From a virus: a stretch of 47,849 bases of DNA. The stretch lies in IMG/VR virus record IMGVR_UViG_3300018954_000043, positions 1-47,849 of that record; one strand, written 5' to 3'. Position 1 is the first letter of the stretch. Each line of letters begins with the position of its first letter. Of this stretch, positions 243-46,530 are shown piece after piece. A program made the translations under genes and the position numbers. The notes below the pieces were generated by a model. The model was not told the origin of the DNA. It saw only the letters and a list, made by a program, of their open reading frames with translations, and did not search any database.

Positions 243-932
243 TTAGCCCTTCCCTTCAAGCTCTCGACGCGCCCGCTCATATTCGGCAAGGTCTTCCGGC
301 GAAGGTGGGGCCGTTTCTTTACTTACAGTTCTTTTATAAGTTCTTCTCTCTTTTATGGGTACATACCCTGGACGGGGTGCAAAATCTGTACGGGGTCCAG
401 AATCTGCACGCGGAACGAGCACGTCAATCACGTATCCGCGTTCTCCGTTCTTCGTGATGATCTTGATTAACTTCCGCGAGTCGAGCAGGTTCAAAGACAC
501 GCGCGCCTGCGAGCGCGAGACGTGGCAGGCGTTACCGACTTCATTTAGTGAGACTTCTATGCGGACCTTGCGCCACCCGTGGCTGCGCGCGAGCAGGTAC
601 AGGAGCACCACGGAGTCGGAGGGCTTAAGGGTCGGCATCAGGTCGAAAAGGAAATGGTTGGTCAGTTGGAGAAACCCGCGCGTGGGTTCAGATTCTGGGC
701 CCCGTTCAGACTTTGGACGCCGTACATTTTGCACGGGGGGCGTGCTTTTTGTACCGAGTTCAATATCTGGGCGGGGTTCAGATTGTAGAGGGGGTGCAGA
801 TTCTGGACGGGGTTCAGATTCTACACTAGGAGGAGACCCGAAAAACTTGGCGAAAACGGCCTCATTCGTGCCCGCGCTAGTTTCCTCGCCGCGTCTTATT
901 GGCCCGTAGTTCCTTTTCCGTTTCGTGCTCAC
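243..932 (-). CDS. Plasmid/phage replication initiator-like protein with internal iterons
   Basis: A 229-aa protein. The middle part (about residues 85-170, from GFLQLTNHFLFDLMPTLKPS) looks like the winged-helix domain of plasmid replication or phage replisome-organizer proteins: helices, then a HTH (VSLNEVGNACHVSRSQARVS) and a basic wing. The N-terminal third is a Pro/Glu/Arg-rich low-complexity linker made of eight hexapeptides such as VESEPR, LQSEPR and PESEPT, encoded by 18-bp DNA repeats. A short second repeat block (RADSGPRTDFAPRPGY) lies near the C terminus. Start is GTG at 932 with AAGGAG about 7 nt upstream; the gene overlaps the end of parA by 56 bp, so the two are probably translated from one message. 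Initiator function is inferred from fold, neighbours and repeats; a RepA/DnaT-like role is the best guess. Confidence 0.65.
   Translation of the reverse strand: MSTKRKRNYGPIRRGEETSAGTNEAVFAKFFGSPPSVESEPRPESAPPLQSEPRPDIELGTKSTPPVQNVRRPKSERGPESEPTRGFLQLTNHFLFDLMPTLKPSDSVVLLYLLARSHGWRKVRIEVSLNEVGNACHVSRSQARVSLNLLDSRKLIKIITKNGERGYVIDVLVPRADSGPRTDFAPRPGYVPIKERRTYKRTVSKETAPPSPEDLAEYERARRELEGKG
358..411. repeat. Iteron-like array, 3 copies of 18 bp
   Basis: Three head-to-tail 18-bp units start at 358, 376 and 394 (for example GGTGCAAAATCTGTACGG at 376 and GGTCCAGAATCTGCACGC at 394). They fit the same consensus as the larger array, GGTTCAGATTCTGGACGG, and sit inside the 3' part of the initiator gene. 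Confidence 0.7.
685..828. repeat. Iteron-like array, 8 units with 18-bp period
   Basis: Repeat starts fall at 685, 703, 721, about 739-741, 757, 775, 793 and 811, an 18-bp period. Clear units are GGTGCAGATTCTGGACGG (793) and GGTTCAGATTCTACACTA (811). The inner 15 bases (GTTCAGATTCTGGAC) are nearly self-complementary, so each unit is a dyad. Arrays of 18-bp iterons inside an initiator gene are the arrangement of the lambda O gene origin; this is therefore the best candidate origin of replication. Confidence 0.7.
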
Positions 933-1665
933 CGATAATCTCCTTCGCCGCCCTCAGATAGTCCATCGCCCCCGAGGCGGTCGGGTCATATTGCGTGACG
1001 GGCCGGCGCGCGTTGAAAGCCTCTTTGAGCCGGACATTTTTGTTGATAGGGCTGAGGGTGTAAGCCTCAAAATGGGCCTTTATTTCCTCGTGGATGTCGC
1101 GGGCGATGTTGGTTCGCTCAAGGAAGGTCGGCAGGGCAAAGACCCTCAGGGGGTGTTTGAGCTGCGTGATGATCTTGCGGAGCGTCTGCATCAGGTAAGG
1201 AACCGCTTCCCACGATTCGGGCGCGCACTCAATCGGGATGAGCACCGTCTGAGAGGCCGCGAAGGCGTTGATGTTGGCGAACCCGAGGAAGGTCGGGCAG
1301 TCAATCAGCACGTAGTCGTAGCCCGTGACGCCTTCCAGAGCCCCTGCGAGCCTGTATTCGCGGCTGAGGGCGCTGTTGAGGTCGAGGTCGAGGCTGGCGA
1401 GCTTGAAGTTGCTCGGAGCCAGCGGGATGCCGGCCGGCGCCTTCTGGATGACATCGGGCAGGGGCAGGCCGTTCATCAGCACTTCGTAGACGGTCTGGCC
1501 CTCGGCGCCGTAGCGGTCCAAAAGAAACCGAGTTGCGGTTGCTTGCGGGTCCAGGTCTATCACCAGGACCGTGCGGCCCTGAGAGATGAGGGCCGCGGCA
1601 AGGTTTACGGCGGTGGTCGTCTTGCCGACCCCGCCCTTCTGGTTGGCGATTGCTATGACCTTCAC
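877..1665 (-). CDS. parA: ParA-family partition ATPase
   Basis: A 262-aa ParA/Soj/MinD-type ATPase. The deviant Walker A motif NQKGGVGKTTTAV is at residues 8-20, the A' motif VLVIDLDPQATAT near 34-46, and the Walker B region DYVLIDCPTFLG near 118. Such proteins move low-copy plasmids to daughter cells with a DNA-binding partner. Starts with GTG at 1665 behind an AAGGAG about 10 nt upstream; it overlaps the preceding HTH gene by 4 bp and the following replication gene by 56 bp. No ParB of usual size is present, so the small HTH protein just upstream may be the partner. Presence of parA and absence of integrase argue for plasmid-style prophage maintenance. Confidence 0.93.
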   Translation of the reverse strand: MKVIAIANQKGGVGKTTTAVNLAAALISQGRTVLVIDLDPQATATRFLLDRYGAEGQTVYEVLMNGLPLPDVIQKAPAGIPLAPSNFKLASLDLDLNSALSREYRLAGALEGVTGYDYVLIDCPTFLGFANINAFAASQTVLIPIECAPESWEAVPYLMQTLRKIITQLKHPLRVFALPTFLERTNIARDIHEEIKAHFEAYTLSPINKNVRLKEAFNARRPVTQYDPTASGAMDYLRAAKEIIGEHETEKELRANKTRRGN

Positions 1666-1862
1666 GCGGCTTTCTGCTCCTTTCTGGGCCTGCCGGCCTC
1701 TTCGAGCAGGGCGTCTATGACCGATTCCTCAATCAGCCGTTGGCGCTTGTCCAGCGGGTCAGGGATAGAAGGAATCTCGCCGGTTTTGACTCTGCGCCCC
1801 ACGGTGTAGCGGGAGACGCCGAGGGCTTTGGCCGCCTGCGTGATGCTTAACTTTCTACTCAT
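1662..1862 (-). CDS. Small HTH DNA-binding protein, possible ParA partner
   Basis: A 66-aa protein from the ATG at 1862; an upstream TTG at 1922 exists in frame but has no ribosome binding site and would add residues before the conserved start. Residues 5-30 form a MerR/excisionase-type helix-turn-helix (SITQAAKALGVSRYTVGRRV) followed by a wing-like IPSIPDP and a C-terminal helix. Its stop overlaps the parA start by 4 bp, so it is co-translated with parA. It could bind the centromere as a ParB/ParR substitute or repress the par-rep operon; the near-palindrome at 1919-1930 lies just upstream. Confidence 0.65.
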   Translation of the reverse strand: MSRKLSITQAAKALGVSRYTVGRRVKTGEIPSIPDPLDKRQRLIEESVIDALLEEAGRPRKEQKAA

Positions 1863-1918
1863 GGGCGGGAATGATAAACGCAACAGTGGCACAGCGTCAA
1901 CGAAAGTATATTTATGTG

Positions 1919-1930
1919 GCAATATGTTGC
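1919..1930. promoter_or_regulatory. Near-palindrome between divergent genes, candidate operator
   Basis: GCAATATGTTGC has GCAA/TTGC arms (10 of 12 positions symmetrical). It lies in the 110-bp gap between the leftward HTH-parA-rep operon and the rightward gene at 1973, which is relatively AT-rich for this genome. A site for the HTH protein is an inference. Confidence 0.3.
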
Positions 1931-11140: not shown

Positions 11141-11584
11141 TCATTCGGCCGCCGCAAGTGCTAACGAGCCGTCTACGGGATCGAACTCGACGCCGGGCTC
11201 GCGGGCCTGTTCGATCTCAAGGGACGACGTATAGAAGGCGTCCAGGAGGGCGCGGTAGCTCAGGGACTTGTTTTTGAACTTGCCGAGGAAGTCTTTCTTT
11301 GTGCGGGTACACCGGAAGATGAACAGCCCCCGCCCTTCGGCCCGTCTCGCGTTGTAAAAATCCCAGATGTACGCCTCGGTTGATTGAGCGGCGAACTGCC
11401 CCTCTCTGCGGTGCGGATGGCGGTGCAAGTGCCCGTAAACAACGCGCCACGTTCGGAGTCCCGAAGGACTCCCGACGAGCGCGGCGTCGCCGTAGCCGTC
11501 GCCGTAATCAACCTCATAAACGTCGTGGCTGACCTCGACCTCGTGCTCCCGGACTTGAACGTACTTGAGTCTTTCGTATGGCAT
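11141..11584 (-). CDS. Distal minor tail protein, lambda gpM-like family
   Basis: A 147-aa protein. The segment EVDYGDGYGDAALVGSPSGL-RTWRVVY matches the pattern of the Phage_min_tail family (lambda gpM), in which an F/YGDGY motif is followed by W.V.Y. C-terminal half continues with FIFRCTRTKKDFLGKFKNKS. Follows the tape measure gene in transcription order, as in lambda (H-M-L-K-I-J). Acts at the tail tip as the first ring around the tape measure. Confidence 0.75.
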   Translation of the reverse strand: MPYERLKYVQVREHEVEVSHDVYEVDYGDGYGDAALVGSPSGLRTWRVVYGHLHRHPHRREGQFAAQSTEAYIWDFYNARRAEGRGLFIFRCTRTKKDFLGKFKNKSLSYRALLDAFYTSSLEIEQAREPGVEFDPVDGSLALAAAE

Positions 11585-11600
11585 CGGTTAAATTCCGCCC
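11585..11600 (+). promoter_or_regulatory. Divergent start module B with leaderless-type -10
   Basis: Sixteen bases, CGGTTAAATTCCGCCC, separate the minus-strand ATG (11584) from a plus-strand ATG (11601). TAAATT at 11589-11594 is six bases before that ATG. The spacer matches module A at 11 of 16 positions, and the flanking CAT...ATG spacing is identical. Confidence 0.45.
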
Positions 11601-11654
11601 ATGAAATACCTATCAGCCGGACGCTTGAGAACCGGGACGGAGCGGATGTTTTGA
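11601..11654 (+). CDS. 17-residue leader reading frame
   Basis: A short frame (MKYLSAGRLRTGTERMF) begins right after module B and ends with TGA at 11652-11654. It is in the same frame as the membrane protein gene that starts at 11667, four codons after the stop. It may be a leader peptide, or the 5' part of a longer gene broken by TGA. Confidence 0.3.
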   Translation: MKYLSAGRLRTGTERMF

Positions 11655-11666
11655 AATAGGGTCGCC

Positions 11667-11876
11667 ATGCTGCAACTAATCGGCTTCCTGCTCTGCTTCT
11701 ATCTTGTCTTTAAGGGCTACGAAATCCTTCAAATCGCCCTTGCCAGTAGTCGGGAAGACAAGAGCAAAATCGTAGCGTGGGGCGTCATGTGGTTTGTATG
11801 GAGCATCATCATTGCGGCCATCTTCGCCATGATGTTCTTCGCTGTCGGCGGCGTGGCTGACCATCCATCACGCTAA
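11667..11876 (+). CDS. Small two-TM membrane protein (moron candidate)
   Basis: A 69-aa protein with two hydrophobic segments, residues 2-26 (LQLIGFLLCFYLVFKGYEIL) and 36-61 (IVAWGVMWFVWSIIIAAIFA), separated by a short charged loop SSREDKSK. Encoded opposite to the tail genes in a 283-bp gap, overlapping the end of the tape measure gene by 9 bp. Weak ribosome site (TAGGGT). Could be a superinfection-exclusion or antiholin-type membrane protein expressed from the prophage; this is inference from position and topology. Confidence 0.6.
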   Translation: MLQLIGFLLCFYLVFKGYEILQIALASSREDKSKIVAWGVMWFVWSIIIAAIFAMMFFAVGGVADHPSR

Positions 11877-14800
11877 GGCCGGCTTCAGTTCTTTCTCTTG
11901 AATCCTGTTCGGGTCACTGTTGAAGGCGCGCACGCGCGCGTCGTTGAAGGCGTCGGCCGAGGTCATTCCGAGGATTGAATCGGCCGGCACGGCGTTGATA
12001 CGACTCACAGCCTGCGTGTTCTCGCGCAGCGCGTCTCGCGTCTCCCGCATCGTTGCCTCAACTCTGCGGAAGAAATTCTGCTCTCGGCTGTCCCGCGTGA
12101 ACCTGTCTTCTCGTGAAGTGTCGCGCTGCGGGTCAGAAGCCCCTCCGCTATTCGTCCCGCCCTGCGAGAAGGCGTCACCGGCAATCGCACGCCCCGCTAC
12201 GGCAGCCGCGCCGCCCACTAACCCATACAAAGCCGCGGCTTTCCATGCCTGCACTTTGGCGGCGCTATATAACAGGGCAGAGGGGATATTGCCGGCTGCG
12301 GCCGCGGCCGATGCCTTAGCTGCGTAGCCGAACCCTTCAGCCACTAAGAATGCTGCTTTGACAAGGGATTGAGCGGCGAAGCTTGCCAAAGTGGCCGCTG
12401 CCAACTTCCGCAGCGCATTCGAGCCGACCGTGCCGGTTAGTACCCACGCCTCTATCATGCCGCCCAAGCCCTGTACCACACCTTGAATCGCGCCCGTAAC
12501 CATTGTGGTCATGTTCCCGGCCGCATCCCCCATCTGGCGGAAGACTTCTACTGCTGTCGCGCCGAGGGCGGACAGTACAGAGCCCGTCTGGGTAAGCTCG
12601 TCCGTGAGGGTGTCGCCGAACAGGCTACGGGTCGAGAGGGGGTTTTGGAGTTCAAGTTCTCGATTGCGCTGGCGGTTAATCTCGTCAATCTCGGCCTGGC
12701 TTCTCTTTTCTTCGAGGTTCCTTAGCTCGTTGAAATGCTTCTGAATCTCAAAGGCTTTCTCTTCAAACGCAATGTTGTTGGCTATGGATTTTCGCCAGTA
12801 CAGCAACTCCGCGTGCTCGCGCTCGTTGATTGCCGTTATCGCTTCGTCTTTTGCGAGAGTGGCGCTGTCAACCTCGATTTGATACCGCTCTTTAATGACC
12901 TCGATCTCACGCCCAGAGATGTGCCGTATCCGACTGAGGGCAGCCATTCGGGCCGCGATTCGGGATGCCGTAAGGCTCACCTCTATCGGGACAAGTCGGC
13001 TGGCGCTCTCCCTTGTTCGCTCCGCGTCTTCCCTTAGGCCCTCTCTATAGCGCCTATTCCCCTCCTCCTGCGCGTTCGTCCTCTCCTGTTCGAGTTCGCT
13101 GATTTGTGCGGTAAGCTCAGAAACATCCTGCGCATATTGCTTTCTCGCTTTAACCTCTTCCTTCAGGGCGTCAATGCGACGGTCAATAGCCGAAAGGGTG
13201 ACGTTGGTTATTGCGAGTTCCGCCTCTGCGACGGGCTTGGCCCCCGTGCTCGCTTCATCCCGAAGGGCTGCTACACGGCCGGCGTCTTCCGCTGACAGCT
13301 TGCCCTCACCTAAGCGACTGCGGCGCAGGGCCGTTAGCCTCGTCTGCAACGCCGCCTCTTCTATCCGCCGCTTCGTCTCTTCTCTCTGCCTCGTGGCCTC
13401 CGCTTCGACCTTCGTCAAATCGCCGTGGAGCTTCGCGCGAAGCTCCACGTCCTGCCCGGCGGCGGCGAGTCTCCGCTTGATCTCGTCAATCTGAATCTGC
13501 GTGATGGACTGCTCAATAATCGCTATTCTTCGCGTGTGCGCTTCGCGCAAAGACTCATCCTTTGCAATAGCGGCTTCCAGCGTCTCGATTTCGGCGCGGG
13601 CGCGCGTGGCAGCGGCTTCGATGGCGTCTGCCTGCGCCTGATCCTCCATCTCCCGCATCCGTACCCGGTAATCGGCCCACGCTTTTAGTTCCTCATTCCT
13701 GAACCTGTCGGCGATGGCGCGCTCCTCAACGCGCAGGGCTTCAATGCGCGCCCTCCTGTTCGCCTCGGTCTCGCCCTCCTTAAGCTCGGCCTGCTCCTCT
13801 TCGGCCATCCTCGCCCGGATAACCGTCACTTCCGTTTCGGCCAGTCGCTTTGCGGCGGCTATCCGTTCCGCCGTGGCCGCGTGAAGCGATTTCTGCCGGA
13901 GCGCGACCTGCCGCTCGATTTCTGCGGTGGTGTTCTGCTCAATCTGCTTTTGGTAGTCGGCCGCAGCCTGCAAGGTATCGAGGTAGGCTTTTGTAGATGC
14001 TTCACGAATCTTCTGCTGGCGGCCAAGCTCAATCTCCTGCCCTTCGCTGTCGGCTCCCTGCGAAGCTCTATCCTTAGCGGCAGCGGCAAACGTGCTCCAT
14101 ACGCTACTGAAAGCGGGGTCGAGGGGGCTAACCCTCCTGAGCGTCTGCATTAGCCCGATGATGTTGCCTAATTCTTCGGAGAGGCCGGAGACGAACGAAC
14201 GGCCGAGGGTGTTGCGTAGAGCCTCATACTGAATTCCAAGCTCGCGTAAGTTGCGCTGGTATTCCTTCGCATTCTTCGCCGCCTCGGCGGTCATCAACAG
14301 GCCGGTCTCGCGCAGTTGCCTCTTGTAAGCCTCAAAGTCCGGGCCGATCTCGCGCAGGATGCCGCCCACTTTGCCGCTCTCATCCGAAAAGAGTTTTTGC
14401 AGGAGGGCCGCCTTTTGCGTCGGGTTGTGCAGGCGATTGTAGGCGTTGATGAACTGAATGAGGGCCGCGTCATTGTCTTTGCTCGCGGCCTTCGCATCAA
14501 TGCCGAGTTGCCGGAGCAGGTCGGAGACGTGGGGAAGGTTGCCGGCCGCCGCCTCACCTAACTGGCGGTTGAAGATGTTGATGCTCTCGCGTATCTCGGT
14601 GATTTCCCGGCCCGTCCGCCTCGCGGCCACGTCCAGGACCGACATATTCTCGGCGGATAGACCTAATGTGTCGGCGAGCTTCGCCACGGGCTCATCCGCT
14701 TTGGCCGCGGCGTCGCCCAGCTTGACCATTACGGCCCCGGCCACGACTGCGGCGGCGGCCGTGGCGATGAACGCCCCCAAGATGACCCCGGCGCCTTTAG

Positions 14801-23998: not shown

Positions 23999-25243
23999 TT
24001 ACAGCAGTTTAAGGCTTGGCGTCTGCCTGCGGCCTGCGGTGGCGCCGGGCGGGGGCGGCACCGGGCGGTCATCAGCCATCTTCTTTGCGAGGGCGAGGGC
24101 GCACACGCAGTCGTCATGCACTCCTTCGGGCGCCGAGTACCTGACGCCCGTTCGGGTGTAGACGTACTCAAAGCTTTCAAGCTCGGACGCTATGGCGCCT
24201 TCCGGGTAAGCTATCTCGCGCTGCTGAATCGCAACCGACAGCCCCTCCATCAACTGCTGCTTGCTCTGCGCCGTGAACTTGAAACCTTCGTAATTAGTCG
24301 CCCGCTCTTGCAGGCCCTCCAGGATGGGGTCGCCGACGCCTGTCGAGTCAACGAGACAGGGCGCCTTCCCGACCGTGCGGCGAATGCTGTCGAGCGTTTC
24401 GCGCCACGGCTTCTGAAAACGCTCGAAGCGGCAGACGGCGCTCTGCGCGTCTAGCCCGATGATGACCGTCCAATCAACGGACTTGGCGAGGTCAACGCCG
24501 AACGCCACCGGAGGGGCGGTTGACATCGGCGCGATGCAGTCTCGGATGGCCTGAATGCCGAACGGGTTCCCCTCGTCGTCAGACGCCTCGGCCAGATACA
24601 GCTCACGAAAGACGGCCTCGGGCAACTGCCGGCGCGCGTCCTCAATCTCTTCGGCCCTCAGCACGCCGGCCGTTACCGCGTCCAGCGCGGTAATCTTGGC
24701 AAACGCCATATCGGGGTCGCCGCCCTCGGCCCGGCGGGCGAGCCTGTATGCCCAATTCCTTCTACCCTTGACGTTCCCGATAACCCGAAGCCTGCCGCGG
24801 GTGGCAGTTAGAGTCGAGCGGACGGCGTACCACGCCTCTTCTTTGCAGCGCGAAGCCTCATCAATGACCGCGGCGAACACGTCCTCTCCATAAAGGGAGT
24901 CGGGCTTATCGCCCCCCTTGAACCAGATAACAGCCCCGTTGGCGAGCGTGAGGGTCAACTCCGATTCGTTTGCGGTGAAGACCTCAGAGGGTAGCCCGCG
25001 CTTCATTCGGCGGAAGGCAATCTTCGCCTGCGGGTAGACCGGCGCGACCCACCAGAAGTTTTGCCCGGCCTTGCCTTTCAAGGCTTCTTCGAGCAGCCAC
25101 GCCATACACCCGACCGTTTTGCCCGACTTGGTAGAAGCCTCAATGACGACGTAGCGGGCGGGCGCGAATATAGCGTCCCGCTGCTTGGGGTACATCCACG
25201 GCCTTTGGTAAATGGCCTCAACTGTTCTCGAAGCTGCCGGCAT
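23999..25243 (-). CDS. terL: Terminase large subunit
   Basis: A 414-aa ATPase-nuclease. Walker A is ASTKSGKT (residues 36-43, first Gly replaced by Ala, common in terminases), Walker B VFAAVIDEASR, and the nuclease acidic residues are in FGVDLAKSVDWTVIIG, LVDSTGVGD and GVHDDCVCALALA. Packages DNA into the prohead. Overlaps the small subunit gene by 26 bp. Confidence 0.95.
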   Translation of the reverse strand: MPAASRTVEAIYQRPWMYPKQRDAIFAPARYVVIEASTKSGKTVGCMAWLLEEALKGKAGQNFWWVAPVYPQAKIAFRRMKRGLPSEVFTANESELTLTLANGAVIWFKGGDKPDSLYGEDVFAAVIDEASRCKEEAWYAVRSTLTATRGRLRVIGNVKGRRNWAYRLARRAEGGDPDMAFAKITALDAVTAGVLRAEEIEDARRQLPEAVFRELYLAEASDDEGNPFGIQAIRDCIAPMSTAPPVAFGVDLAKSVDWTVIIGLDAQSAVCRFERFQKPWRETLDSIRRTVGKAPCLVDSTGVGDPILEGLQERATNYEGFKFTAQSKQQLMEGLSVAIQQREIAYPEGAIASELESFEYVYTRTGVRYSAPEGVHDDCVCALALAKKMADDRPVPPPPGATAGRRQTPSLKLL

Positions 25244-33738: not shown

Positions 33739-35082
33739 TTAGGTTTCGACCGTGGGCGCGTAATCGAGTGCGCCCTTGCCGAACGTCCAGGCGACCGCCT
33801 CGTGCGCCTTCGTGATATTTGGCGGCACGCGCAGGAAATAGTCTTTGAAAGTCCCGTCCGGTTCCGGCGTGGAGTTCGTCACCTGCACTATGACGAGCGG
33901 TTCGTCGCCGGGCAATTCCTTCCGATACAGCGTGCCAAAGCGGTCGCAGTGAACCTGCTTGGCGCCCGCGTCGAACAAGAACCTCTCCTGCCCGTACAAC
34001 TCGATCATCACGCGCCGGACCTCGGCATTCTCTTCGGCCTCTATGCGCGTGACGGTGATTGAGGAGGGCTGCTCGATAACGTCGGCTGGCACGCGGACGC
34101 CGTGGACGGCATAGATTGCCCAGCCGTCGGGGAATGCCACCGCCGGGCCGGTAACACAGTGGAGCCTCCCGCGCTCGTCGCGCTCAAGTACGTGGTGGCG
34201 CTCCGAAACCCAGCAGATGTTGCCGTGAGGCAGGAACCACCCGGCGGCCTTCGCCTGGTCGAAGAGACCGACGAGCTGTTCCGTCTCTGCCGTGAGCCCG
34301 CACGCCTCGCGAAAGAATTCGTAGAACCCGAGCCACTCGGCGTCGTGTTGGCCGTAAGCGCTGTCCCAGACGCTGTCCCCGACGCTGTCCCAGACGCTGG
34401 CCCAGACGCTGTCCCCGACGCTGTCCCAGACGCTGGCCCAGACGCTGGCCCCGACGCTGGCCCCGACGCTGGCCCCGACGCTGTCCCAGACGCTGGCCCC
34501 GACGCTGGCCCCGACGCTGTCCCCGACGCTGTCCCAGACGCTGGCCCCGACGCTGTCCCAGACGCTGGCCCAGACGCTGGCCCCGACGCTGGCCCAGACG
34601 CTGGCCCCGACGCTGTCCCTGACGCTGGCCCAGACGCTGGCCCAGACGCTGGCCCCGACGCTGGCCCCGACGCTGACCCTGACGCTGTCCCTGACGCTGT
34701 CCCCGACGCTGGCCCAGACGCTGTCCCCGACGCTGGCCCCGACGCTGACCCTGACGCTGGCCCAGACGCTGTCCCTGACGCTGTCCCTGACGCTGGCCCA
34801 GACGCTGTCCCCGACGCTGTCGCCGGCAATGCCGGCGACAGCGTCTCCGAACCGCTTATCGAGGATGACGGCGCGAGTCAGCCCCATCGAAAGTGGAGAG
34901 CCGCACCAGACGATTCGGTGCGGCTCCGGCAAGCCGGCCGCCCGGTAGGCGCTGCGGATTGCGGCCTCGGCTCGCGGGCGGTCGGCCGCGGCGGTGCAGA
35001 GGCCGATGGCCGTCCACCGGTCCCTGAACTCCACCAGGCGCCCCCGCTGCTCCGGCGTCAGTGTTGTGATTATCTTCGTCAC
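33739..35082 (-). CDS. Tetrapeptide-repeat protein (DUF6745-like flanks)
   Basis: A 447-aa protein in three parts. Residues 1-87 (LTPEQRGRLVEFRDRWTAIG, RIVWCGSPLS) and 244-447 (YGQHDAEWLGFYEFFREACG, RLHCVTGPAVAFPDGWAIYA, NAEVRRVMIELYG, VQVTNSTPEPDGT) match a family I know as DUF6745, widespread and of unknown function. Between them, residues 88-243 are 39 tetrapeptides [D/A/V]-S-V-[G/W/R]. A solenoid or beta-helix is likely. The DNA is a 12-bp tandem array. The gene is followed in transcription order from the small VTGHAHA gene at 35093, the usual neighbour as far as I recall. Confidence 0.8.
   Translation of the reverse strand: MTKIITTLTPEQRGRLVEFRDRWTAIGLCTAAADRPRAEAAIRSAYRAAGLPEPHRIVWCGSPLSMGLTRAVILDKRFGDAVAGIAGDSVGDSVWASVRDSVRDSVWASVRVSVGASVGDSVWASVGDSVRDSVRVSVGASVGASVWASVWASVRDSVGASVWASVGASVWASVWDSVGASVWDSVGDSVGASVGASVWDSVGASVGASVGASVWASVWDSVGDSVWASVWDSVGDSVWDSAYGQHDAEWLGFYEFFREACGLTAETEQLVGLFDQAKAAGWFLPHGNICWVSERHHVLERDERGRLHCVTGPAVAFPDGWAIYAVHGVRVPADVIEQPSSITVTRIEAEENAEVRRVMIELYGQERFLFDAGAKQVHCDRFGTLYRKELPGDEPLVIVQVTNSTPEPDGTFKDYFLRVPPNITKAHEAVAWTFGKGALDYAPTVET
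34354..34821 (-). repeat. Tandem array, 39 units of 12 bp
   Basis: On the plus strand nearly every unit reads GACGCTG-x-CCC-y, with x one of T/G/A and y one of C/A/T. All other ten positions are constant apart from the array edges. On the coding strand this gives codons yGG, GxC, AGC, GTC: only two bases vary per unit and both change the amino acid. Because stop codons are rare in the unit, long open frames appear on both strands here; they are shadows. Confidence 0.95.
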
Positions 35083-41745: not shown

Positions 41746-41961
41746 ATGAAATCGTTCCGCTCGTTCGCGCTCGTGTGTCTGCTCGTCGCTTCTGCTTCGG
41801 CCGGCGTTATTCCCATCCCGCGCGAGGAACCGCCGCCCTGCCAGCCGACCGTTGACCGGCCCTGCCCCGAAGACGGCGGGACCAGCTCGACGCAGGGAGA
41901 CGACGGCGAAGGGTTCGCGTCTCTCTCGTCCATCTTGTCGGCTCTGCTCGGCATCCTCTAA
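41746..41961 (+). CDS. Small secreted protein, plus strand
   Basis: A 71-aa protein behind AAAGGACT. A signal peptide (MKSFRSFALVCLLVASASAG) is followed by a Pro/Cys piece (REEPPPCQPTVDRPCPEDGG) with two Cys and a hydrophobic end (LSSILSALLGIL). Lone plus-strand gene among leftward early genes with a promoter-like TATAAT, so it may be expressed from the prophage and change the cell envelope. Confidence 0.6.
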   Translation: MKSFRSFALVCLLVASASAGVIPIPREEPPPCQPTVDRPCPEDGGTSSTQGDDGEGFASLSSILSALLGIL

Positions 41962-42047: not shown

Positions 42048-42287
42048 TTATTTCGTCGCGCTTTCGCCCCAATGCTGCTGCACCCAATCGTAGAATTTGG
42101 GGAGCAGCCTTGTGTCAAAGAACGGGTCAAGATTCGTTCCCTGTATTTGCAAGACCAGGTCAGGGCGCATCTGCGACAAGACGTTGAAGGCGGCCTGGCC
42201 CACGCGCCAGTTGGGGTACGCCGCCACCGCCCGCTCGACGGCGGCCGTGTAATCCTCGAATGAAATTGTTTTGACTTGCTCGCTCAC
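42048..42287 (-). CDS. Conserved phage protein of unknown function
   Basis: A 79-aa protein with FEDYTAAVERAVAAYPNWRV-GQAAFNVLSQMRP and TNLDPFFDTRLLPKFYDWVQ; the pattern WR.GQ..FN.L...RP..DPF is common in phage proteins of unknown function. Overlaps the next gene by 4 bp. Confidence 0.7.
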   Translation of the reverse strand: MSEQVKTISFEDYTAAVERAVAAYPNWRVGQAAFNVLSQMRPDLVLQIQGTNLDPFFDTRLLPKFYDWVQQHWGESATK

Positions 42288-42745
42288 AGCATCGCCTTCT
42301 CTCTCGACGCCTGCCTGCCGTAGCCGGCGATGAACTCGGCCAGCCGCTCCCTCACCCGCTCGGCGTCCGAACGGCTCGTGTAGCCGTCGTCCGCGTCCTT
42401 CATGGCCCCGATGAACTCGCGGGTCAGCGCCAGCAGTTCGTGGTCTTCCGAGGCCCGCGGCTCATCCGAGTGGCGGGCGATGATCCTGTTGAGAATCGAG
42501 AGGGCGAACCGGGCGACGCGCGGGTTTGCTGCTGCTGCGGCGTTGAACTTCACCGCGACCTTGTAGAGCCACGACGGGGTTTCGGGAACGTGCGGGGAGT
42601 GCATCCGCGAGACGTGGGCGTCGTCCTTGTGGCCTAATTGACGGGCGAAGGCGGCGTTAAAGCCGTAGTTCTCCGGCCGCTGAAGGAAGTCGTAAAACTC
42701 GCGTTCAACGTCGTACTGATTGACCGGCTCTATTGTTGACTTCAT
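42284..42745 (-). CDS. Possible regulatory protein (CII-like)
   Basis: A 153-aa protein from ATG 42745. REFYDFLQRPENYGFNAAFA-RQLGHKDDAHVSRMHSP contains a helix-turn-helix-like element with a Gly in the turn; the rest is helical. It is the first leftward gene after a long non-coding gap, the place of an early activator such as CII. Family not certain. Confidence 0.5.
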   Translation of the reverse strand: MKSTIEPVNQYDVEREFYDFLQRPENYGFNAAFARQLGHKDDAHVSRMHSPHVPETPSWLYKVAVKFNAAAAANPRVARFALSILNRIIARHSDEPRASEDHELLALTREFIGAMKDADDGYTSRSDAERVRERLAEFIAGYGRQASREKAML

Positions 42746-42751
42746 GGTCAA

Positions 42752-43411: not shown

Positions 43412-43615
43412 TCAGGCGGCGGCGGGCGCGTCGCTTTGTTTTTCTTCAACGGGCACAAAGCGGACAGGGTGTCGCTTCATGTACACCGGCAAGCCATATT
43501 TCAGCGCGTAGCTCAAAGCCTGCGAGAGCGTGTCGCCTCTCAAAGCGCTCTCACGCTGTAGTTGCTCTTTGATTTCCGCTTCGGTGTAACCGCAAATAGT
43601 GGTTTTCTCTGACAT
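43412..43615 (-). CDS. Small regulator-like protein at divergent promoter
   Basis: A 67-aa protein from ATG 43615 (GAGGTG upstream). EKTTICGYTEAEIKEQLQRE, then SALRGDTLSQALSYALKYG and a short tail. Its promoter overlaps operator TATAAAGTTATA at 43644-43655. Small size, charged helices and location next to an RHH-like gene suggest a regulator, but no fold is certain. Confidence 0.5.
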   Translation of the reverse strand: MSEKTTICGYTEAEIKEQLQRESALRGDTLSQALSYALKYGLPVYMKRHPVRFVPVEEKQSDAPAAA

Positions 43616-43634
43616 AATCACCTCGCTGGATAGG

Positions 43635-43664
43635 TTTATAATCTATAAAGTTATACAGAGTCAA
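43635..43664 (-). promoter_or_regulatory. Leftward promoter with operator in its spacer
   Basis: Minus-strand -35 TTGACT (43664-43659), 18-bp spacer and -10 TATAAA (43640-43635). The palindrome-like TATAAAGTTATA occupies 43644-43655 in the spacer, and TTTATA-ATC-TATAAA (43635-43649) is a perfect dyad. Confidence 0.5.
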
Positions 43665-43676
43665 GCACAATTTTCA

Positions 43677-43712
43677 TTGCGGGCAAAAGGGCTTGTGGTG
43701 TATAGAGTTATA
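43677..43712 (+). promoter_or_regulatory. Rightward promoter overlapping second operator
   Basis: TTGCGG (43677-43682), 18-bp spacer, TATAGA (43701-43706). The operator copy TATAGAGTTATA (43701-43712) covers the -10. Drives the RHH-like gene at 43727. Confidence 0.45.
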
Positions 43713-43726
43713 GGCTTAGAAAAGAA

Positions 43727-43987
43727 ATGGCGAGACCAAAGATTGATCAATCGCGCGCGAAATTCCAGGTTTGGCTGACCGGTGAGGATGCCGACCGCTA
43801 TGAAGAAGTGCTGAAACGGGCCTTTGCGCGACAGCCTCGGGCACCCGTAAGCGTAATTAACAGACGTTTACTTGGCCTTGACTACGATGAGGATTTGTTG
43901 ACGGATGATGATATTAATTTCTTTCGGAGGGAGGTAGATGTGAACAGCGTAAAAGCCAACCAACCCAGTAAGGAGGATGCCGCTTGA
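43727..43987 (+). CDS. Ribbon-helix-helix-like protein, probable regulator
   Basis: An 86-aa protein. SRAKFQVWLTGEDADRYEEV-LKRAF then APVSVINRRLLGL fits a strand-helix-helix RHH fold of the Arc/CopG type; the C terminus is acidic. Its promoter carries an operator-like repeat, so autoregulation is a reasonable idea. First gene of the rightward block. Confidence 0.55.
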   Translation: MARPKIDQSRAKFQVWLTGEDADRYEEVLKRAFARQPRAPVSVINRRLLGLDYDEDLLTDDDINFFRREVDVNSVKANQPSKEDAA

Positions 43988-44247
43988 CCCAACCGCTGCG
44001 TAAGCCGCTCCCTCACAGAGAGGCTGACGACTTAGCGGTCGAGGTTGAACAGCTCGCGCGCTACTATGTAGAACTGCCGCGCGAGTGTCAGCTCGACGTA
44101 CTTGCCCTAACACGAGCGTTGTGGAAGCGGCGCCACAAGGAGGCCGCCGCGTTGAAGAAAATTTCGGAACGAGAGGAGGCTCGGTCGCGTCTTACGGACG
44201 TGCCGCAGGTTAAGGCGAACGTCCCTAAACGGAAGAAGGATCGTTAG
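43984..44247 (+). CDS. Small charged protein, coupled to RHH-like gene
   Basis: An 87-aa protein starting at TTG 43984 and overlapping the previous stop. Highly charged helical (HREADDLAVEVEQLARYYVE, LWKRRHKEAAALKKISEREE) with a Lys-rich tail NVPKRKKDR. Could be the partner of the upstream RHH-like protein (a toxin or co-regulator); no family recognised. Confidence 0.5.
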   Translation: MTQPLRKPLPHREADDLAVEVEQLARYYVELPRECQLDVLALTRALWKRRHKEAAALKKISEREEARSRLTDVPQVKANVPKRKKDR

Positions 44248-44330
44248 TCCAAGCAGAAGACCGATTAGGCTGCCCGCACCGCCGTCAACCCTCCCCACAT
44301 GCTCCCGCGTTTATGGGGCAAGGCCTTTTT

Positions 44331-45005
44331 ATGTCCAAAATCCTCAGAATGCCGTGGGTGAGCGTCAGGAGGGTACGCCTGCCCCGCGGGGTTACACGCG
44401 CCGACAAGCCCCTGTCACTCGAAATCTGCAATGACGCCTTAGAGCCCGAGGGTTATCCCAGAGGCTCCTTCGCTCTTGCAATTCACGGCCCTGTCTCATC
44501 AGGCCGGCTCTGCGCCCTCATCTACCGGGGTTGCTACCTGGTCTCGCGCATCGTCAAAACTCCGCGCGAGACCGTAATTTTCATTGACCAGGATTGCCAG
44601 ATACGTGACGAGCCGGAGAAGAGTATTACCCTCGTTGGCCCCATCGTGCCCGAGCGGCCAAAGCCCAGACAGTCGCAACACATCCTTGAGGTCGGCCGCG
44701 AGACTGTCTCCTGGCAAACCGATCCGGCCGGCCTCACTGTTCAGGTCTCCCAAAACTCGCGCCGGGTGCTTGGCATGGACTCTGAAGACATCAGGGGGTT
44801 TGGGTGGATTAGTAAGTTTCACCCCGAAGATATTCAGGGCTACGTGAAAGCCCGGCAGGAAGCGCGCGAGAAAGGAGCCGTCTTGCAGTTCTCTTTCCGC
44901 TGGCGAATGCCCGTGGGTGATTACCGTATAGCGGCAGTTGTTGCTTGCCCTGTTAAAACGGATGATGGCCTAATTTATGAAGGTCATACGCAACTTGCAC
45001 GTTAA
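44331..45005 (+). CDS. S24-like (inactive) domain fused to PAS domain
   Basis: About 224 residues from ATG 44331 (another ATG at 44313 adds six). Numbering from 44313: residues 33-112 look like the LexA/CI-type S24 fold (LEICNDALEPEGYPRGSFAL, LVSRIV, TLVGPIV), but A42 stands where the catalytic Ser is expected (DAL for DSM) and no Lys is seen at the VKR site (LVSR). Residues 129-228 are a PAS_3-like domain (SWQTDPAGLTVQVSQNSRRV, HPEDIQGYV, RWRMPVGDYRIAAVV). No HTH. Interpretation as a sensory, non-cleaving protein is inference. Confidence 0.6.
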   Translation: MSKILRMPWVSVRRVRLPRGVTRADKPLSLEICNDALEPEGYPRGSFALAIHGPVSSGRLCALIYRGCYLVSRIVKTPRETVIFIDQDCQIRDEPEKSITLVGPIVPERPKPRQSQHILEVGRETVSWQTDPAGLTVQVSQNSRRVLGMDSEDIRGFGWISKFHPEDIQGYVKARQEAREKGAVLQFSFRWRMPVGDYRIAAVVACPVKTDDGLIYEGHTQLAR

Positions 45006-45022
45006 AAATGAAAGGAACTCAC

Positions 45023-45826
45023 ATGCGTCTCATACTGCCAATCATCCTCACGCTCTGCTTTAGTTTGGCCGCTTTAGGTCAAGAGTTAACTCCACCGCTC
45101 ACCAATAGCGATGTTATAGAGCTGCATAAGGCGGGACTCTCGGCCGAGGTGATTGCGGCCAAGATTAAGTCCTCGCCAACTGATTTTGACACATCGGTTG
45201 CGTCTCTTCAGGAATTAAAGAAGGTAGGCATCACCGATGTCATCATCTTGGCGATGCTGGAAGCGAGGAAAGAAGGCAAGAGGATGTCGCCCGCCACCCC
45301 CGCGCCGGCCACGGGAGCGTCTGAGGCCAAGACGAATGTCGAACTGCGCTTTCCGCCGCGCGGTGCCTACAAGCACAAGAAGAATATAGAAGTTGAATAT
45401 GACCGCTTCAAGGATGTTACTTACGTCCGTCTTAAGTATCTCAACGTAACAACCGGATTGACGGATCATGTAAGTATCGTTGCCACGTATTCTTATAAAG
45501 GTACGAATCCGGCGACTCCTGAAACGGTGAATCTTGGCTTTTACTCACGCTCAAGGTCATGGCGCTTTTTGAAAGACCGCGCCTTTGTCGTTATCGCTGA
45601 TGGGGAGCGTTTGGATTTTGGCGAAGCGGTCCGATTAGATAGCGACGTTAGCAGCAGTCGGTACAGCGTAAGTGTAAGTGAGACGCTGGCCGTCTCGATG
45701 CCGCTTGAGTCATTCCTGAAAATTGTCAACGCAAGTAGCCTGCAACTGCGGCTCGGCTACTATGAATTGCCGTTGGCGCCCGATCACTACGAAGCGTTAA
45801 AGGATTTCGCCAGTCGTATGCAGTAA
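45023..45826 (+). CDS. Secreted protein with Acidobacteria-type N-terminal domain
   Basis: A 267-aa protein from ATG 45023. Signal peptide (MRLILPIILTLCFSLAALGQ), then LTNSDVIELHKAGLSAEVIA-AKIKSSPTDFDTSVASLQELKKVG, a repeat-like helical domain that I associate with secreted proteins of Acidobacteriota. The C-terminal 150 residues are beta-rich (VRLKYLNVTTGLTDHVSIVA). Probably carried cargo from a host gene; function unknown. Confidence 0.65.
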   Translation: MRLILPIILTLCFSLAALGQELTPPLTNSDVIELHKAGLSAEVIAAKIKSSPTDFDTSVASLQELKKVGITDVIILAMLEARKEGKRMSPATPAPATGASEAKTNVELRFPPRGAYKHKKNIEVEYDRFKDVTYVRLKYLNVTTGLTDHVSIVATYSYKGTNPATPETVNLGFYSRSRSWRFLKDRAFVVIADGERLDFGEAVRLDSDVSSSRYSVSVSETLAVSMPLESFLKIVNASSLQLRLGYYELPLAPDHYEALKDFASRMQ

Positions 45827-45855: not shown

Positions 45856-46284
45856 ATGCTCCATGAGCAACCCTTTAGGTTGATATACCTTATTCTTTGT
45901 GAGGATTTTTCGGAGGATGAGGAAGGCAGGCTGCACTTACACCGGGTACTGGGGAGCCACTTAGTTAGTTCTGACTCGCCAGAAATGCCGCCGTTAAAGC
46001 TCAGCATCAAAGCAGTGGCATCTTTTTACCTCACAGATAAGACAGTCAAGTTTGAGATAAGGCTTGCGATGCTGATGCCGGACGGCCAAGAGCGCACATT
46101 TGGCACGGGCTACTTCGGAACCGTTGACGGCGTTTACATGCCTTTGCGAATAATTGTCTTCAACTTAACGATAGACACACCCGGCGTCTATTGGTTTAGG
46201 GCTTATCACGCGCAAGATTTAATAGGCGAATATCCCTTTACCGTCACCTATCATCCCGCTCAGGAAGCTCTAGGTGTCCAATGA
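45856..46284 (+). CDS. Small beta-sandwich-like protein (DUF6941-like?)
   Basis: A 142-aa protein with RLIYLILCEDFSEDEEGRLH, then LAMLMPDGQERTFGTGYFG and FNLTIDTPGVYWFRAYHAQD and GEYPFTV. The layout resembles small beta-sandwich proteins annotated as DUF6941. Ends 41 bp inside the convergent gene. Function unknown. Confidence 0.5.
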   Translation: MLHEQPFRLIYLILCEDFSEDEEGRLHLHRVLGSHLVSSDSPEMPPLKLSIKAVASFYLTDKTVKFEIRLAMLMPDGQERTFGTGYFGTVDGVYMPLRIIVFNLTIDTPGVYWFRAYHAQDLIGEYPFTVTYHPAQEALGVQ

Positions 46285-46450
46285 CGCCATCGGGTGAGGA
46301 CGTGCTATTGCCCTTAGAATCGTAAAACGTCCATACGTCTTCAACGGCGACGGATGTTAAATCCTCAAAGCTAATCGTCCTCACCGGCGCCTTTAAGCTA
46401 GCCGCTTCGCCTCTCGCTTCCACCCTCAACTGACCTTCCTTTTCGGCCAT
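46244..46450 (-). CDS. Small protein, convergent with upstream gene
   Basis: A 68-aa protein with a strong GGGAGGTG before the ATG (46450). TISFEDLTSVAVEDVWTFYD looks like a strand-helix-strand unit. It overlaps the end of the rightward gene by 41 bp and shares the AT-rich promoter region with the gene at 46572. Confidence 0.5.
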   Translation of the reverse strand: MAEKEGQLRVEARGEAASLKAPVRTISFEDLTSVAVEDVWTFYDSKGNSTSSPDGVIGHLELPERDDR

Positions 46451-46495: not shown

Positions 46496-46530
46496 TTGCA
46501 ATGTATAGAAATATAAGTTATAACTTTATA
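46496..46530 (+). promoter_or_regulatory. Promoter with operator identical to that at 43.6 kb
   Basis: TTGCAA (46496-46501), 17-bp spacer, TATAAC (46519-46524). TATAACTTTATA at 46519-46530 is the exact reverse complement of the operator at 43644-43655; a weaker copy TATAGAAATATA lies at 46504-46515. TTGCAA is itself a palindrome, so it could serve both strands. Confidence 0.5.

Follow-up and report, generated by a model that had tools for sequence, protein, structure and literature searches.

A viral protein is described in which a true PAS domain is fused to what is probably a non-cleavable S24-like domain. S24 domains are the classic link from DNA damage to prophage induction. The individual parts of the protein are known, and its novelty probably lies in their combination; the function discussed below is proposed from sequence and models. 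The window analyzed is the whole of a 47,849-base stretch of viral DNA.

Reading frame and PAS half

The open reading frame (ORF) encoding this protein is real, whether it starts at 44313 or at 44331, and its frame outscored the other five in codon usage. The earlier note had placed the gene at 44331–45005; the plus-strand ORF is present, although 44331 is an in-frame internal ATG and the ORF opens at 44313. No convincing ribosome-binding site was seen by eye at either start, and the surrounding open frame amounts to 258 codons in total. The ORF and its C-terminal domain are located as follows.

44313–45005, plus strand: whole ORF (P0001), 230 amino acids, in the frame favored by the codon-usage score
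44331–45005, plus strand: product of 224 amino acids from the alternative start, an in-frame internal ATG
44739–44972, plus strand: PAS_3 domain (PF08447), residues 143–220 of P0001, E = 8.2e-11

On the strength of its profile match, the C-terminal half is a genuine PAS domain. PF08447 was matched with 42.5 bits in the Pfam profile search, above the curated cut-off of 25.6 bits, in agreement with the PAS_3-like domain noticed earlier. The chain stops directly behind the PAS core, and therefore no output domain follows it. By eye, this half showed none of the residue patterns that mark heme, flavin (LOV) or chromophore PAS domains.

Close relatives of the protein were found in neither viral_contigs nor genome_contigs using peptide patterns and two degenerate motif scans, which by our estimate detect roughly at least 70% identity, so that more distant homologues may exist. 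A tblastn search against phages and plasmids returned PAS proteins and chance matches only. One near-full-length match, from Deinococcus, was discarded because it lay within a PAS S-box protein of far greater size (2469-nt CDS). Furthermore, no full-length homologue was found among the viruses related through the terminase (TerL) or in phage G047, the nearest relative phage found, from which the ORF is absent.

S24 resemblance of the N-terminal half

The N-terminal half is probably of S24 ancestry, and its assignment to S24 is suggestive. The relevant features, with residues numbered from 44331, are the following.

44355–44654, plus strand: degenerate S24-like (LexA/UmuD C-domain-like) domain, approximately residues 9–108, from MAFFT, a guided model and Foldseek, with weak statistics
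44385–44390, plus strand: Arg19-Gly20, which by eye stands where the Ala-Gly/Cys-Gly self-cleavage site would probably be
44436–44438, plus strand: codon of Ala36 (GCC) at the catalytic Ser column, in NDALEP (MAFFT)
44544–44546, plus strand: codon of Ser72 (TCG) at the catalytic Lys column, in LVSRI (MAFFT)

Natural S24 proteins gathered from viral contigs served as the comparison set, and profiles were built from their cores. In an unguided MAFFT alignment of the target with 58 of these cores, NDALEP fell on GDSMxP and LVSRI on VKRI, and in the same run LVGPIV fell on the single invariant Gly. The spacing between Ala36 and Ser72 is 36, and the commonest Ser–Lys spacing in the S24 set is 37–38. 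Global BLOSUM alignment to 63 natural cores gave z = 2.6 for the mean and z = 3.6 for the best score, which were equaled by 1.3% and 0.7% of shuffles, respectively. With hhalign the score was 17.25 against a shuffle null of 10.8 ± 2.4, and one shuffle in 150 surpassed it.

Other searches gave no support. The N-terminal half had no sequence match in Pfam, PHROG, NCBIfam or the PDB, the S24 profile PF00717 does not recognize it, and in HMMER with HMMs of the natural viral S24 cores it scored no better than its own shuffles. The S24-like domain claimed in the earlier note is thus weakly supported by the collinear motifs, by a shuffle tail of about 1% and by the guided model described below, but not by any profile or HMM. 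Structure prediction, which had been suggested as a check, was similarly divided. AlphaFold returned a pLDDT of 35 for the protein without relatives (single sequence), whereas with an S24 alignment the pLDDT was 77 and the pTM 0.68, with residues 31–80 at 80–89. The top PDB matches of the guided model in Foldseek were the C-domain of Mtb LexA, λ CI and UmuD', and phage CI and LexA-like models were also matched; the E-values were modest (best 0.0086) and the TM values about 0.5. Because the guiding alignment was itself S24, this fit indicates compatibility with the S24 fold and is no independent proof of it.

It is unlikely, though far from negligibly so, that the N-terminal half is some other small β domain carrying S24-like motifs by chance, which would make the protein a PAS protein with a non-S24 N-domain. 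Such a reading would account for the absent HMM support and for the approximately 1% of shuffles that attain S24 scores, and the motif had been picked by a reader scanning the entire window. However, the half is collinear with S24 over its whole length at near-correct spacing, and the guided model is confident in the core.

If the half is of S24 ancestry, it has lost the means of cutting itself. The earlier observations that Ala replaces the catalytic Ser in NDALEP and that no Lys stands at the second catalytic site both held in the unguided alignment, where Ala36 occupies the Ser column and Ser72 the Lys column; the Lys nearest to the latter is residue 76. No AG or CG dipeptide occurs in residues 1–120, which span the S24-like domain, and the distance from cleavage site to catalytic position is, on our reading of the sequence, about 18 residues shorter than in Escherichia coli LexA or UmuD. 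With Ser, Lys and cleavage site lost, RecA-dependent self-cutting is not to be expected, and the half is probably an S24 fold minus these three features that is incapable of it. The reading frame is intact, which suggests reuse rather than decay of the S24-like core.

A DNA-binding part is also lacking. A profile search found no helix–turn–helix (HTH) in the protein, the only HTH_3 site in the window being a single weak one at 1794–1856. An N-terminal HTH has not merely been overlooked, since the open frame comprises only 258 codons. With neither an HTH nor space for one, the protein is not a repressor of the CI/LexA type, and without a DNA-binding part it most likely works by protein contact.

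Gene cassette, palindromes and virus

The ORF is the third of five co-directional genes that overlap or are separated by short gaps.

43727–43987, plus strand: gene 1, a small charged protein of 86 amino acids, possibly a regulator
43984–44247, plus strand: gene 2, 87 amino acids, overlapping gene 1 by 4 nt; by eye, an HTH-less protein whose C-terminal part resembles that of XRE regulators
44313–45005, plus strand: gene 3, the PAS ORF
45008–45826, plus strand: gene 4, 272 amino acids, beginning 2 nt past the stop of the PAS ORF; an N-terminal signal-peptide-like stretch suggests that it is probably exported
45856–46284, plus strand: gene 5, 142 amino acids, DUF6941-like (PF22091, E = 2.3e-4, below the cut-off)

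The GC3 of these genes is 0.52–0.67, compared with 0.75–0.84 in the adjoining minus-strand genes at 42048–42751, and their GC is also lower. This composition and the foreign codon usage suggest that the set is an acquired cassette. The 87-residue upstream gene was matchless against plasmids, as was a 155-residue gene against phages.

Palindromes of the form TATAA-N2-TTATA lie on either side of the cassette.

43644–43655: palindrome TATAAAGTTATA, in the gap between 43412–43621 (minus strand) and 43727 (plus strand)
43701–43712: near-palindrome TATAGAGTTATA, in the same gap, 57 nt beyond TATAAAGTTATA
46519–46530: palindrome TATAACTTTATA, just past the cassette, in the gap between 46244–46450 (minus strand) and 46572 (plus strand)

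Perfect or near-perfect copies number three in the window against 0.04 expected, a comparison to be read in the light of the motif having first been spotted in the cassette region and of AT-rich promoter elements as a partial alternative. All are confined to the two divergent gaps bounding the cassette, two before it and one after, which makes the motif a good candidate for an operator.

The virus carries the structural genes of a tailed phage (TerL, portal, major capsid protein and tape measure) together with genes of plasmid character.

243–932, minus strand: Rep-like gene; the Rep identity is weak (Phage_rep_O, E = 0.021)
877–1665, minus strand: ParA
1662–1922, minus strand: small HTH-like gene overlapping parA

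These genes are laid out as a plasmid-like operon (243–1922, minus strand) for an HTH-like protein, ParA and a Rep-like protein. The Rep-like gene contains 14 iteron-like matches to CAGAWTCTGNAC at 377–826, counting both strands. Searches for a tyrosine or serine recombinase were negative in the record, which may be incomplete. Judging from ParA, the iteron-bearing Rep gene and the lack of a recognized integrase, the virus is probably a phage-plasmid. A DUF6745 protein is encoded at 33739–35082 on the minus strand (E = 8e-65); repeats of 12 nt form an extended array there, starting near 34251.

The TerL protein (23999–25243, minus strand) is 57–71% identical to that of many viral contigs. When long contigs were compared, these relatives shared little besides TerL, and it therefore seems that this terminase passes from phage to phage even where the rest of the genome differs. 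The acidobacterial phage Tunturi_4 had the top TerL bit score among the named phages listed; from the cargo of the virus, its host may be acidobacterial. Phage G047 shares more, namely the capsid (75–85% identity), portal (58%), tape measure (44%) and tail fiber (41%), as well as ParA (39%) and a TPR protein (37%).

The TPR protein of G047 (L293:11495–12892, plus strand) has a C-terminal S24-like domain with GDESLADAGIQPGDII, in which the Ser is retained and the Lys column is apparently Gly. Its Pfam S24 match is weak (E = 0.22), and its z value against the viral S24 set is 4.1; pairwise comparison with the N-domain of the PAS protein was not significant. With this protein, the pairing of a sensor with a worn S24 core seems to recur; that one phage group should contain two HTH-less sensor proteins with such S24-like cores is a hint in that direction.

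In the window, the TPR gene (41055–41645/41729, minus strand) stands head to head with a gene at 41746–41961 (plus strand), which has a good Shine–Dalgarno sequence and encodes a 71-residue signal-peptide-like protein with a hydrophobic end (ASLSSILSALLGIL). G047 keeps this arrangement of small protein and TPR protein (L293:11148–11378, minus strand, and 11495–12892, plus strand), and an XRE gene adjoins its TPR protein. No recognized HTH is present in the TPR receptor. From its layout the pair looks like a peptide and receptor of the RRNPP/arbitrium type; descriptions of such systems have so far come from Firmicutes and from mobile elements of that phylum (PMC10075063).

Proposed function and related systems

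These observations are best, though tentatively, explained by a docking module, S24-like and non-cleavable, that is under the control of a PAS sensor. As a whole, the explanation, plausible but short of probable, is that the protein acts as a two-domain cytosolic signal-responsive adaptor. The S24-like part would serve as a dimerization or docking surface, and the PAS part would switch state on a ligand, redox or other cue and so tune a partner. Candidate partners are a host or phage S24-domain protein (of the LexA, CI or UmuD type) and the products of the small genes just upstream. The gene may have arrived within the accessory cassette of foreign codon usage, whose transcription is probably under a regulator binding TATAA-N2-TTATA in the bounding divergent gaps. 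That the output is control of the phage or plasmid, as against a host trait, is possible but less likely than not.

Known systems share parts of this design. The Peptidase S24 family (LexA, λ CI and UmuD; PF00717) resembles the protein in its collinear motifs, in the spacing of the catalytic positions and, when modeled on S24 relatives, in its predicted fold; the PAS-ORF protein differs in lacking Ser, Lys, the Ala-Gly/Cys-Gly site, an HTH and a Pfam match, and in a shorter cleavage-loop region. UmuD likewise has no DNA-binding domain and acts by protein contacts, as proposed here, but it retains the Ser–Lys pair and cleaves itself, whereas the PAS-ORF protein has no dyad and is fused to PAS. 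CI of phage 186 is not cleaved in the SOS response and is controlled by the Tum antirepressor. It is a phage protein with a LexA-like C-domain fold (PDB entries 2fjr and 2fkd); however, it has an HTH and no PAS domain and was weak in the fold search (ranks 42–43). To our knowledge, neither gp7 of GIL01 nor DdrR of Acinetobacter contains a PAS or S24-like domain. Both are small partners whose direct contact with an S24-family repressor modulates it, gp7 acting on LexA (PMC4551915) and DdrR on UmuDAb (PMC11332147), and this is the mode proposed for the PAS-ORF protein. The LexA-like regulator IrvR is an example of a family member freed from RecA (PMC7101444). VqmA of vibriophage VP882 (PMC8284805, PMC12802170) is also a PAS sensor protein borne on a phage-plasmid, but its PAS domain is N-terminal and is followed by a C-terminal DNA-binding HTH of the LuxR type, whereas here the PAS domain is C-terminal and an HTH is absent.

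Two other functions were weighed against the adaptor. The first, which we regard as rather unlikely, is that of an accessory moron, in which a PAS sensor of a bacterial host was captured by the phage-plasmid and acts on host physiology and not on a phage switch. The lower GC and GC3 across the cassette would fit such an origin, as would the full-length homologue missing from the TerL relatives and G047 and the probably exported neighbor directly downstream. However, no host homologue was found in the scans of genome_contigs, and the palindromes at the divergent gap of the cassette recur beside another phage gene pair, hinting at phage-wired control.

The second grows out of the earlier note's view of a non-SOS switch for prophage control: the protein would decide between lysis and lysogeny as a repressor or as an antagonist of one, its PAS domain responding to a host cue in the manner of VqmA in VP882. 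The signs of a phage-plasmid (ParA, a Rep gene carrying iteron-like repeats, and no recognized integrase) and the operator-like palindromes common to the divergent gaps around the cassette are consistent with it, and in VP882 and further plasmid-like phages SOS-independent induction is brought about by sensory regulators (PMC8284805, PMC12802170, PMC10432266). The anatomy given in the note, a degenerate S24-like part plus PAS, gained support and is the best reading of the protein. The switch role was nevertheless not borne out and is distinctly unlikely: the protein neither contains an HTH nor leaves space for one, the cassette is foreign in composition and codon usage and is not an obvious immunity region, the neighbors in the cassette encode a DUF6941-like protein and one that is probably exported, the gene is missing from the nearest relative found, where an XRE gene adjoins that for the TPR protein, and other small genes that look regulator-like lie on the opposite strand at 42048–42751. 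Prophage control is possible all the same, because signal-dependent, SOS-independent control has precedents among phage-plasmids: VqmA of VP882 (PMC8284805) and the TF-smORF small-protein modules of plasmid-like phages (PMC10432266).

Extended to the family, the adaptor reading becomes a speculative and rather improbable one, in which worn S24 cores would be recycled in these phage-plasmids as non-cleavable docking modules on sensors (PAS here and TPR in G047), feeding environmental or peptide signals to S24-type repressors of phage or host without RecA. Signals would in this way reach the classic SOS switch by a sensory path that bypasses the SOS response.

If the adaptor reading is correct, a non-cleavable S24-like core joined to a PAS domain, with no DNA-binding part, would mean that an S24 domain has been retained as a protein-contact module for other signals. 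It would also offer a case, open to experiment, in which a phage from a little-studied viral group senses its surroundings by means other than the SOS response.
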